From positions 1-64,000 of the forward strand of contig JANXBW010000019.1 of assembly GCA_025060325.1 (NCBI GenBank): a stretch of 64,000 nt of DNA, written 5' to 3'. Below the pieces are notes generated by a model. It was not told where the DNA came from. It worked only from the letters and a program-made list of their open reading frames with translations, and did not search any database. The stretch's first letter is position 1; each line of letters starts with the position of its first letter. Of this stretch, positions 28,154 to 31,723 are shown in pieces. Source of the DNA: Thermoguttaceae bacterium (lineage in GTDB: Bacteria > Planctomycetota > Planctomycetia > Pirellulales > Thermoguttaceae). The translations under genes were made by a program, and so were the position numbers.

Positions 28154-28365
28154 CCGGCCAGGGACGGGTACAGACCGTTCAGTAGCACAGTGTCGACCCG
28201 CTCTCAGCAGGGTAACTTTAACATGTTTGCGCTCGGCAGGGCCTAGGTTCAGAACTTGCTCTGCAAGCCGGCTTTAAAGTCCTGCGCTCTTCTGCGAGTT
28301 GACCTGATAAACTTTCCTCCCCGCTAAGTCGGGCCGCCCCGCTAAGTCGGGCCGCCCGAGGATGC
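28154..28365. repeat. Convergent gap with an 18-bp tandem duplication
   Basis: Between the convergent thiH and alpha-CTD genes an exact 18-bp unit CCGCTAAGTCGGGCCGCC occurs twice in tandem at 28321-28338 and 28339-28356, ten bases beyond the alpha-CTD stop. Each unit can fold only weakly, and I do not call it a terminator. Confidence 0.75.
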
Positions 28366-28746
28366 TTAATCCCCGTCAGCGGTGCCGGCCGACTCGGTCG
28401 TTTCCTTCTCAAGATCATCCCGCTCGCAGGACTTGGTCTCAAACGAGGCCCGAAAGCTCCGGTTTTTTCCCTTCTCGCCTCCTTGCCGCCGGGACTTGTG
28501 ATAAAAGCCGAGCCGTTCGAGGCACCGGTAAACCTCTTCCAAAGTCTTTTCGCCGAAGTTCGGGATCGAAAGGAGGAATTCTGGTGTGCAATTCAGGAGG
28601 TCCTCGACCGTGAAAATTCCCTTTTCCTCTAAACAATTCGTGGTTCGGACGGCCAACCCAATTTCTGCAGTACTCAGTTCCAGCTTGGCCCGCATCTCCT
28701 GGTGACGAGCGTAAGCAGGGTTGATAGGAATACGGGTTTTGCTCAC
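28366..28746 (-). CDS. Stand-alone RNA polymerase alpha C-terminal domain protein
   Basis: A 126-aa protein whose residues about 28-82 are an RNA polymerase alpha-CTD, the domain that binds UP-element DNA and activators. An ungapped alignment with E. coli alpha (offset 231) keeps R34 (R265), N37 (N268), C38 (C269), G65 (G296), K67 (K298) and E71 (E302); S299 is T68 and K297 is E66. There is no alpha N-terminal assembly domain. An N-terminal stretch of about 27 residues and a charged C-terminal tail of about 40 flank the domain. The start is GTG 28746, with AAGGAG on the minus strand about 8 nt before it, so it is well set for translation. It could act as a DNA-binding regulator or compete with the polymerase alpha-CTD; that is inference. 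Confidence 0.85.
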   Translation of the reverse strand: MSKTRIPINPAYARHQEMRAKLELSTAEIGLAVRTTNCLEEKGIFTVEDLLNCTPEFLLSIPNFGEKTLEEVYRCLERLGFYHKSRRQGGEKGKNRSFRASFETKSCERDDLEKETTESAGTADGD

Positions 28747-29753
28747 GGTTTCGACTCCTTTCTGGAACGGAATCCTTTCCTAATTCCACCCCGCCGGCGG
28801 GGCTAAAGACTTTTCCAGGCTCCGAGCCGCCGTTCACCGAGCGGAAAGAGCCGTAAAGCCTAGCGGCCTCGAGCGGGCCAACAATGTAACAAAAGCAGCT
28901 TGTTTCAACCAATAACCCATCCGGAGGGTTTGATTCCCGTTTCGGATCATTTGGGGGTTCGATCGCTTTCGAATGGACAAAAGCACCGACCGATACCCCC
29001 AGCCACGGCTCCGGGTGGACCGAGCCTTAGCCGAGAGTGATGAGCTTCAAAGGTGGAGGATAGGAGGCACGAAATTTGGCAGGTAATGAGCGGCACATTA
29101 TTTGGAGCCCTAAACCGCATGCACCGCGTGGGCGGCGGACAGAACTTCTGTGCCCATTCCCAAAAAGTTATAATTGCCGAAAGATTTACAGTTTTACGGG
29201 CCAGCGAGGTAAGCCGGTGTTGTGAAGGGGGAGCTTCGCGAACCCTCCTCCAGAGGGGGAAGCCGGCCTAAACCGGTAAGAACCGGCTTATCGGAAACTT
29301 GGTCGGGCCTCCTTTGCCGAAGTTTCGGCCTTTCCCCCGTTTGGCCGGTCGGGCTAAGAAGTTCGCACCGAAAAGGGTTCGATCCTTGCCGGAACATCCG
29401 GACCCAGGCCCGAGCCCGGGTAGCTTACGCGCAAACTGCTGACCGTCCACCGAAATCGGCCGGTTTTAGTTCCGGCCAGAACTGGATCCCCACGGGTTAA
29501 GCCGGCCGGGGACTGCGAGCCCTTTTGTATCGCAGGTTAGAATAACCCCGGGGGAGACAGGACCGGAACCCGCGAATCTTTGGCCTGGGGGCTTTGGCCC
29601 AGGTAGTGCCAACCCGAATTAGTACGAGTTTAGAGTGGCCCTTTACCGGGTTGCGGCGGGGGTACTCGCGCAAGCGGCTGCAAAAGAGCCTGAAGGCGGT
29701 TTTTCAAGCCCGGCTTAAGCCGAGGTTTTTCCCACGGCGGTTCGTTGCGCCAT
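28747..29753. other. Gap upstream of tRNA-Thr and the alpha-CTD gene
   Basis: About 1 kb. No gene or known RNA was recognised; I looked for the tmRNA, RNase P and 6S core motifs without success. Inverted repeats rich in CCGGC occur: AAGCCGG at 29260-29266 pairs with CCGGCTT at 29283-29289, and the palindrome CGGCTTAAGCCG at 29711-29722 is followed by AGGTTTTT. A structured transcript is possible but unsupported. Confidence 0.35.
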
Positions 29754-29826
29754 GCTAGCGTAGCTCAATCGGCAGAGCAGCTGATTTGTAATCAGCAGGT
29801 TGTGGGTTCGAGTCCCACCGCTAGCT
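29754..29826 (+). tRNA. tRNA-Thr (anticodon UGU)
   Basis: A complete cloverleaf can be drawn. The acceptor stem GCTAGCG (29754-29760) pairs with CGCTAGC (29819-29825), and the discriminator base is T. The D-arm is GCTC...GAGC, and the anticodon stem GCTGA/TCAGC holds the loop TTTGTAA with anticodon TGT. The T-arm is GTGGG TTCGAGT CCCAC. The CCA end is not encoded, so it must be added after transcription. Confidence 0.95.
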
Positions 29827-30255
29827 TTTCCCGAATCAGTGCCAGTTTTCCTGGTTGGCTCATCCTCTGAGATCCAACCAGCGACGCACCTCATCAGGGG
29901 CTACCTGCAAACTCCCGACGGGCTTTCCGGAATCACTAACTTGTGGGAATGAGCCAAAAAATCAGGGCCTCACGCAGAAGACTTTAAGGGGGTGAGCTCG
30001 ATTCACGGCTGGGAAGGCCGCCAAAGCGTGCCAGCTTTTCCTGAAAGTCCTCCCGGCGGTCGGGGCCAGAAATGACCTCTCAGCCCCAGACCTGGGGAAA
30101 GCCCTTCGGGATTTTCGCGGCGAATTTCCGTAGGCATAATTATGTGAGCCTAAATTGTGTGAACCTGAGACGACCGCTGGGGTTAGGGAGAAGGAAGCTC
30201 GCTTTGGGGCGAGGCTTCCTCGTTGCAGGTTAGCGTGACCGTAGCAAGCTTCCAA
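29827..30255. other. Gap between the two tRNA genes
   Basis: No gene seen. An 8-bp inverted repeat, CTGGTTGG at 29851-29858 and CCAACCAG at 29874-29881, lies about 25 bp after tRNA-Thr. It could help end the transcript, although no T-run follows. Confidence 0.35.
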
Positions 30256-30329
30256 GCGCCCGTAGCTCAACTGGATAGAGCATCGGTCTTCGGAACCGAG
30301 GGTTGGGGGTTCGACTCCCTCCGGGCGCG
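30256..30329 (+). tRNA. tRNA-Arg (anticodon UCG)
   Basis: The cloverleaf is complete. The acceptor stem GCGCCCG (30256-30262) pairs with CGGGCGC (30322-30328), and the discriminator is G. The D-arm is GCTC...GAGC, and the anticodon stem TCGGT/ACCGA holds the loop CTTCGGA with anticodon TCG. The T-arm is GGGGG TTCGACT CCCTC with one G-T pair. No CCA is encoded. It reads CGA codons, and possibly other CGN codons by wobble. Confidence 0.94.
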
Positions 30330-31723
30330 CTTCCGGTCCTGCCTTCTCAAGCCAAGTCCTTGGAGGCCGCCTCGGCCAAGGCCAATGGCCAGGGCCCCCA
30401 ACTCACGAGACTTCCTTGGAACGCCGCTCACCATTTTTCCCCGATTGGCGAGGAATTGCTGTGAGAGCTCCGGCCCCACACTACGAGGCCCAATGCTCTC
30501 GTTCAAAGACGGCCGTGCAACTCCTGGGTGAGAACTCGAATCAGGAGAAATCAGCAGCCCGGATCCGAAGGCCCCAAAGCTGTCACACGACTTGCTGCCC
30601 ACTGGTCGTTTTTTGGAAGTGGTGCTGGGAGGAAGCATGTGCTGCTGGGGGGAAGCATGAGGTGGCGTTAAAGCAGGCAGTCCACTCTTTGGAAGTCGAC
30701 CTTTGGGGTGCACGGTCCCTCGCCGAGGTCGTTAGCAAGGCATCTCGAGCGCGGTAAAAGGGGCATCAACGCGGGGTGCCGCACCGGTGCCCATGGTCGG
30801 CTTCCTTGACGGCGTTGAGCAACCCCTAGGCCAAAGTCTGAGAATCGTTTTTTCGCCTCCCCGGGAACCGCCACCGCAGGGAAAGTTAACGTCCCTCGGG
30901 AACCGTCTTCAAATCCGTACGGCCTTAGGCGAACGTTTACTCGCAGTTGGCAAAAGCAGCTGAGCTGGCCGTAAACATTTGATAAACTGCCCACTACCTC
31001 GCGCTCCCTTAGGTGCACGGCAGCTTCGAGTTAGGTTGGGGCACTAACTGCTTGGCAGGTAAGCTCTCCGTCTAAGATTTTCAACCAGTCTCTGGACCGG
31101 CGGGTGAACTAGGCAGCTTGCCTGCCCAGGACAGTTTCCTTTGGACCCCTTGTAGGAACGCGCTCCCCGCACCGTCCCCTCTCGTTCAGACCGAAGAGAA
31201 TGCTTGGCCTCCGAGCTGCCGAGCCTCCCTGTCTTATTCGCGGCCGATCCGGAATTTTACACAGGTCCTTGCGGACAATCGTGGCTGGGGCCTCGGGCTG
31301 TTCGCAGCACGAAAACTCGTTGAGAGCTGCCCCTTGTTGACAAATCGTCCGCCAGGCTGGTTTTCAACAACCGGAAGAACATTTGCCCCGCGGAAGGGTG
31401 TTTCCCAGCGGCCGGGTCTCCGATCGCCCGCATGGCCGGCATCATCGCCGCCTCGCCCGTCGCCCGCGGCACTCGGAACGGGAGGATTCCTCATTTGAGA
31501 TTGTCTTCCCAAACGGCCCCGCGTTACTGGCTACTTAACGGTGCAATTTTCGGCCTACGCGCCCTGCGGCAGCTAAGCCACGCAGCTTGTGGTCTGTGCC
31601 CGTGGAGCCCGCAACTACTAAGACCCTTTGGCGGCCGGGGGCGGTCGGTCTAAAATCTTGGAGTTCCGTTTGGTAACAGACTCGCCTTTTGTCACATTAA
31701 GCGACCGCCTCGGAGGGACAGCG
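30330..31723. other. Gap before the C45 acyltransferase gene
   Basis: About 1.4 kb with no credible gene on either strand. Open frames present have no domains or ribosome-binding sites. Nothing else was recognised. Confidence 0.4.

Follow-up and report, generated by a model that had tools for sequence, protein, structure and literature searches.

The C-terminal domain of the RNA polymerase alpha subunit (alpha-CTD) is one of the main meeting points of bacterial promoters and activators with the polymerase, and has been known chiefly in tethered form. The window, by which we mean the whole 64,000-nucleotide stretch of Thermoguttaceae DNA that was analysed, encodes an alpha-CTD as a protein of its own. 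This raises the question of what such a domain might do when it is detached from the polymerase. We argue that this free-standing, untethered alpha-CTD is probably a DNA-binding transcription factor that acts in trans, a reading to which we assign a probability of about 0.55.

A short gene encodes a predicted alpha-CTD fold

The stand-alone alpha-CTD gene occupies positions 28366..28746 on the minus strand, stop codon included, and encodes 126 aa. The ORF was confirmed as a protein with an alpha-CTD (PF03118) and without the alpha N-terminal domain, as the sequence-only reading of this DNA had described it with no strand given. The ribosome-binding site and GTG start noted there also held up, since a Shine-Dalgarno-like AAAGGAG (28755..28761, minus strand) is located 8 nt upstream of the GTG at 28746. 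The alpha-CTD proper corresponds to residues about 20-83 (28498..28689, minus strand) and is preceded by an N-terminal arm of residues 1-19 (28690..28746, minus strand) with a T-R-I-P-L/I stretch at residues 4-8. The C-terminal tail, residues 87-126 (28369..28488, minus strand), varies in length and sequence across the stand-alone family and mostly has low AlphaFold2 confidence.

In Pfam searches the protein matched RNA_pol_A_CTD (PF03118) over residues 16-77 with an E-value of 3.1e-17 and 62.5 bits (cut-off 23.8), while HHH_5 scored 28.2 bits, which is marginally above its cut-off of 27 and far under the alpha-CTD score. The NCBIfam RpoA models covered the CTD part only, and their top score, 54.2 bits, was far under the cut-offs of 227.8-523. 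The solved chains nearest by sequence were Bacillus-type alpha-CTDs, the closest being the alpha-CTD in complex 3gfk (B. subtilis Spx/alpha-CTD; E 1e-11). An AlphaFold2 model based on 30 orthologues had block means of 90-94 at residues 21-80, with an extra helix predicted at residues 10-22 and most of the tail uncertain. The Foldseek matches of this model were alpha-CTDs, several of them from DNA complexes, the top match, with a TM-score by target of 0.93, being the alpha-CTD of an RpaA-DNA complex. The window protein is thus predicted to have the alpha-CTD fold. The gap-free alignment to E. coli alpha-CTD at an offset of 231 was correct, and it equates R34, N37, C38, G65, K67 and E71 of the window protein with R265, N268, C269, G296, K298 and E302; T68, the remaining 265-determinant equivalent, stands at S299.

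The stand-alone gene is conserved and appears nearly confined to one order

The sequence-only reading had suspected that similar proteins occur in other planctomycetes, and conserved homologues were indeed found: of the 60 genomes searched (59 relatives and that of the window), 58 carried the stand-alone gene, as read from match rows. All 60 gave some alpha-CTD match, part of these being RpoA, and completeness is 82% for G003 and 68% for G013, the two genomes without the stand-alone gene. In a sample of 392 genomes from the phylum, 89 had a match with an E-value of 1e-15 or better. Among these 89, twelve belong to the window's order, and in each of them the stand-alone match scored 132-160 bits; this count covers genomes with a match, and the order may have further members among 283 matchless genomes. 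For the matches listed outside the order, the highest score was 79.6 bits, from a 399-aa frame, and the frames were all at least 234 aa long, although distant short forms may remain, scoring having covered the top 12 candidates in most genomes.

From a different order of the class (probably Planctomycetales), 46 genomes were searched, every one of which had a match in an rpoA-sized frame at an E-value of 1e-4. Short free alpha-CTD frames of 84-97 aa were present in two of the 46 (one in G440, two in G459), scoring 53-57 bits as against 132 and more in the stand-alone family, and a further genome (G421) had a 168-aa frame with two alpha-CTD domains. The titles of the best 80 of 402 loci were planctomycete, bar one plain 'bacterium', and include Pirellulales, Pirellulaceae, Thermoguttaceae, Blastopirellula, Bythopirellula and Botrimarina. 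The stand-alone gene is conserved in the families sampled from the order, and the gene family appears nearly confined to that one order, apparently Pirellulales.

Genomic neighbours and the helicase explanation

Neighbours and leaders were counted at 81 loci, namely the window and the best 80 of 402 loci, which had been picked by the peptide patterns VRTTNCL[ED][ED] or I[SP]NFGEKT. A UvrD/PcrA-type helicase gene was found divergently oriented within 1.5 kb upstream at 58/81 loci, and it was absent from 23/81, the window among them. The helicase belongs to an ORF cluster covering 72 loci, a number to which shadow ORFs may contribute, as they do in clusters of this kind; after it come families covering 39, 33 and 32. 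The helicase at locus L108 has UvrD-helicase and UvrD_C domains, with PcrA_UvrD_tudor at 20.2 bits, under the cut-off of 23.9. The likeliest counterpart in the window genome, a candidate orthologue, is encoded on another contig and has the same two domains, with PcrA_UvrD_tudor at 19.5 bits, again under 23.9.

This arrangement suggests another explanation, in which the protein assists the PcrA/UvrD helicase as a DNA-binding helix-hairpin-helix accessory, serving repair or the clearing of stalled polymerase and not initiation. The divergent neighbour, ahead in number of the next neighbour family (39), is consistent with such a role, as are the HHH_5 score above its cut-off and the weak, sub-cut-off tudor match in the helicase. 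PcrA/UvrD is, moreover, described as binding RNA polymerase in three papers (PMC8318588, PMC5397179, PMC7585439), although passages of PMC7585439 name no alpha-CTD contact. Against it stand the alpha-CTD score of 62.5 bits versus 28.2 for HHH_5 and the loci without the neighbour, including the window with its candidate counterpart on another contig. Also, 58/81 is a raw count, to be read against whatever background rate of conserved divergent pairs the order has. We consider a helicase accessory unlikely.

The window gene itself and a radical-SAM/BATS gene point toward each other in a convergent pair, and an ABC ATPase gene is nearby. Genes for tRNA-Thr and tRNA-Arg are located 1.0-1.6 kb upstream (window 29754-30330), on the side where the 58 loci have the helicase gene, and this region may be a site of rearrangement.

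Leader and upstream sequence

At 44/81 loci GGGAGGGA stands just ahead of the start codon, and in 44/44 it is followed by C at the third and fourth position. The extended form GGGAGGGA[AC]CCC stands before ATG at 35/81 loci (for example L108, L048 and L053). In about 768 kb of sequence from the 81 loci, the strand of the gene showed no further copy. Searches of six whole genomes for GGGAGGGAMCCC-N0-6-ATG gave two occurrences, both at the stand-alone gene, and zero in the other four genomes. This type of leader exceeds the length needed by a ribosome-binding site, and the window has the plain AAAGGAG instead. The GGGAGGGA[AC]CCC leader is possibly a translational operator. RNA folding of the leader at four loci gave no signal (z-scores -1.51 to +2.26), and a promoter scan of 28200-29300 returned one sigma-70-like site, inside the gene, and none upstream.

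The heptamers TGCTAGC or GCTAGCA occur in the 400 bp upstream at 46/81 loci (among L036-L115 and the window) and are about 13 times commoner there than over whole loci, some of the matches being helicase codons. Upstream copies of the palindrome TGCTAGCA sometimes come in pairs spaced by about 14 bp; the 400 bp preceding the window gene showed none. The palindrome was rejected as a gene-specific operator and kept as a lead, as six genomes of the order contain between 15 and 267 copies each. A control, the pattern read backwards, was commoner than TGCTAGCA in five of these six genomes, and in G026 seven of the 15 copies lie outside long ORFs, before unrelated genes.

The DNA-contact residues are retained in the stand-alone family

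The residues of the 265-determinant are known to contact DNA from work on the E. coli alpha-CTD. Residue counts on the 80 pattern-picked loci are not independent of the picking, and DNA contacts were therefore counted in 61 stand-alone loci of 60 genomes (58 of the 60 searched plus G447 and G449, with G023 represented by two cut-off loci), on an 80-residue reference. The equivalents of R265, N268, G296 and K298 were invariant (61/61), those of C269 and T299 were each kept in 59/61, and that of E302 in 56/61. The determinant as a whole read RNCGKTE at 56 loci, RNFGKAQ at two, and RNCGKTD, RNCGKTT and RNCGKT with a gap at one each.

The corresponding string in the polymerase subunit was RNCGT(T/S)E in 37 of the 41 RpoA fetched from the 60 genomes and in all 20 RpoA fetched from outside the order (out of 77 genomes with a match). 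T298 was found in 40/41 and 20/20 of these, thus in 60/61 sampled planctomycete RpoA, and K298 marks the stand-alone family against it. The RpoA tails that deviate were those of the window genome (RGSGGAE), G001 (RSCGTTE), G002 (RNSGTTE) and G026 (RNAGTAE), and each of these genomes has an intact RNCGKTE stand-alone copy beside the changed RpoA. The window genome's RpoA has G268, S269, G298 and A299 in E. coli numbering, and its DNA-contact set looks largely lost. Three further genomes of G026's genus had RpoA changed in one (G448, RNAGTAE) and unchanged in two (G447, G449); no stand-alone copy was seen in the G448 assembly of about 1,120 contigs. G014 and G017 show the reverse pattern, with RNFGKAQ in the stand-alone copy and an intact RpoA. 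Within this sample, decay of the RpoA DNA contacts is seen in a single lineage. An order-wide division of labour with RpoA was rejected, as just 4/41 RpoA were changed (5/44 with the additions from G026's genus).

Outside the 265-determinant, position 259 is E in 57/61 and position 261 is Gly in 58/61 stand-alone loci. In the E. coli alpha-CTD these positions face sigma region 4, with E261 as the sigma contact, so that the contact made by E261 may be absent from the stand-alone proteins. In the N-terminal arm, residue 5 is R in 59/61 and residue 7 is P in 50/61. Such positions bear on a further explanation, that the protein is a decoy or adaptor which binds the activators, anti-factors or sigma that touch the RpoA tail, with DNA binding being secondary. 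Several invariant or almost invariant positions of the stand-alone family have other residues than RpoA, namely G261 and T266 and, in the pattern-picked loci, E272, F276, Y304 and R314 (Y304 in 55 of the 61 as well). These family-specific positions, together with the conserved TRIPL arm, fit a protein partner. A pure decoy, however, would not need the DNA-contact set, which is kept whole in 56/61 loci, and we judge this explanation quite improbable.

The stand-alone gene is distinct from rpoA

Three loci of the window genome (4.78 Mb in 89 contigs) together give four PF03118 matches: the stand-alone gene, a full rpoA, and a gene for a TPR protein with two alpha-CTDs. The rpoA gene is full-length, encoding about 344 aa with its own CTD (L004:1438-2472; G000 contig C33). 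A tree was constructed from 131 domains and 63 columns, which comprised 33 of 81 stand-alone rows, 56 of 62 RpoA rows, 36 TPR-alphaCTD rows and six other short alpha-CTDs, two of these six being divergent orthologues from G014 and G017. A branch with 100/100 support split the stand-alone rows and the six other short alpha-CTDs from all RpoA and TPR-alphaCTD rows, a rough value because of the few columns, long branches and unsettled bootstrap. The dN/dS ratio was near 0.04, 0.03, 0.015, 0.17, 0.03 and 0.06 in the six of eight tested pairs with unsaturated dS; in both pairs that included the window gene, dS was saturated (dN 0.21 and 0.49). In those six pairs the stand-alone gene is under purifying selection.

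The stand-alone gene is distinct from rpoA, and its product is best explained, as far as sequence can tell, as an untethered paralogue of the RNA polymerase alpha tail. That it is instead a displaced rpoA fragment, as the sequence-only reading had considered, or a spurious ORF has a negligible probability: the resemblance is indeed limited to the CTD part of RpoA, but a full rpoA is present and the separate branch excludes a fragment together with the orthologues in 58/60 genomes, which, with the purifying selection in 6/8 pairs, also mean that the ORF is not due to chance.

Comparison with other alpha-CTD proteins

The stand-alone protein is like the CTD of RpoA (E. coli, B. subtilis, Caulobacter; PF03118) in its predicted fold, its R265/N268/C269/G296/K298/E302 set and its gap-free alignment. 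It differs in having no N-terminal domain, no tether and no GLxLGM-type end, in its conserved TRIPL arm and G261, and in K298 where 60/61 of the sampled planctomycete RpoA have T298. The TPR protein (441 aa, with the two alpha-CTDs at its C-terminus; L001:391-1716, G000 contig C11, about 182105-183430) is another case in the window genome of the domain being used outside RpoA. It differs by its fusion to TPR and by carrying the domain twice, with K268 in the second copy of the rows examined; the two form separate groups in the tree. Two-domain alpha-CTD frames of a size like that of the TPR protein occur in another order of the class.

Two viral contigs from IMG/VR, L228 and L229 (208 kb and 60 kb), also encode an alpha-CTD, in L228 as a protein of 113 aa (L228:2887-3228). 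The viral proteins are free-standing short frames as well, with 40% identity to the window protein over residues 22-81. Unlike the stand-alone family, the short viral and other-order alpha-CTDs are sporadic, and the frames examined had no TRIPL arm. A 163-aa frame in G045 (L225) combines a cysteine-rich stretch with a following alpha-CTD. A PHROGs match at 0.017 was taken as noise.

We recognised no paper on planctomycete or stand-alone alpha-CTDs in a literature of mostly open-access coverage, with Greek-letter spellings partly missed, and the stand-alone alpha-CTD seems unstudied. Databases may well contain annotated proteins of this single-domain PF03118 type already. Passages of a study on Spx and the B. 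subtilis alpha-CTD describe this domain as binding promoter DNA by itself (PMC2801614).

Proposed role

Because its DNA-contact residues are kept almost unchanged, the stand-alone protein is probably a small DNA-binding transcription factor, and we rank a trans-acting alpha-CTD first, the helicase accessory second and the decoy third. Judging from these residues, it would bind the minor groove of A+T-rich DNA through the 265-determinant, as alpha-CTDs do. On DNA upstream of promoters it might, as the retained acidic residue at 259 more weakly suggests, contact sigma region 4 or a regulator. Such a contact could help or block the polymerase, and it is more speculative than the DNA binding. In the window's lineage the protein may have partially taken over the DNA contact that the RpoA tail has in part lost. 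A more far-reaching version, in which a diffusible 'third alpha-CTD' marks promoters across the order and replaces the DNA contact of the decaying RpoA tail in the Thermogutta-like lineage, seems to us doubtful.

To our knowledge, little is known of promoter biology in Planctomycetota, and the stand-alone alpha-CTD provides a concrete candidate for a regulator in this phylum. A conserved free alpha-CTD beside the tethered one offers, moreover, a natural experiment on the purpose of the tether.
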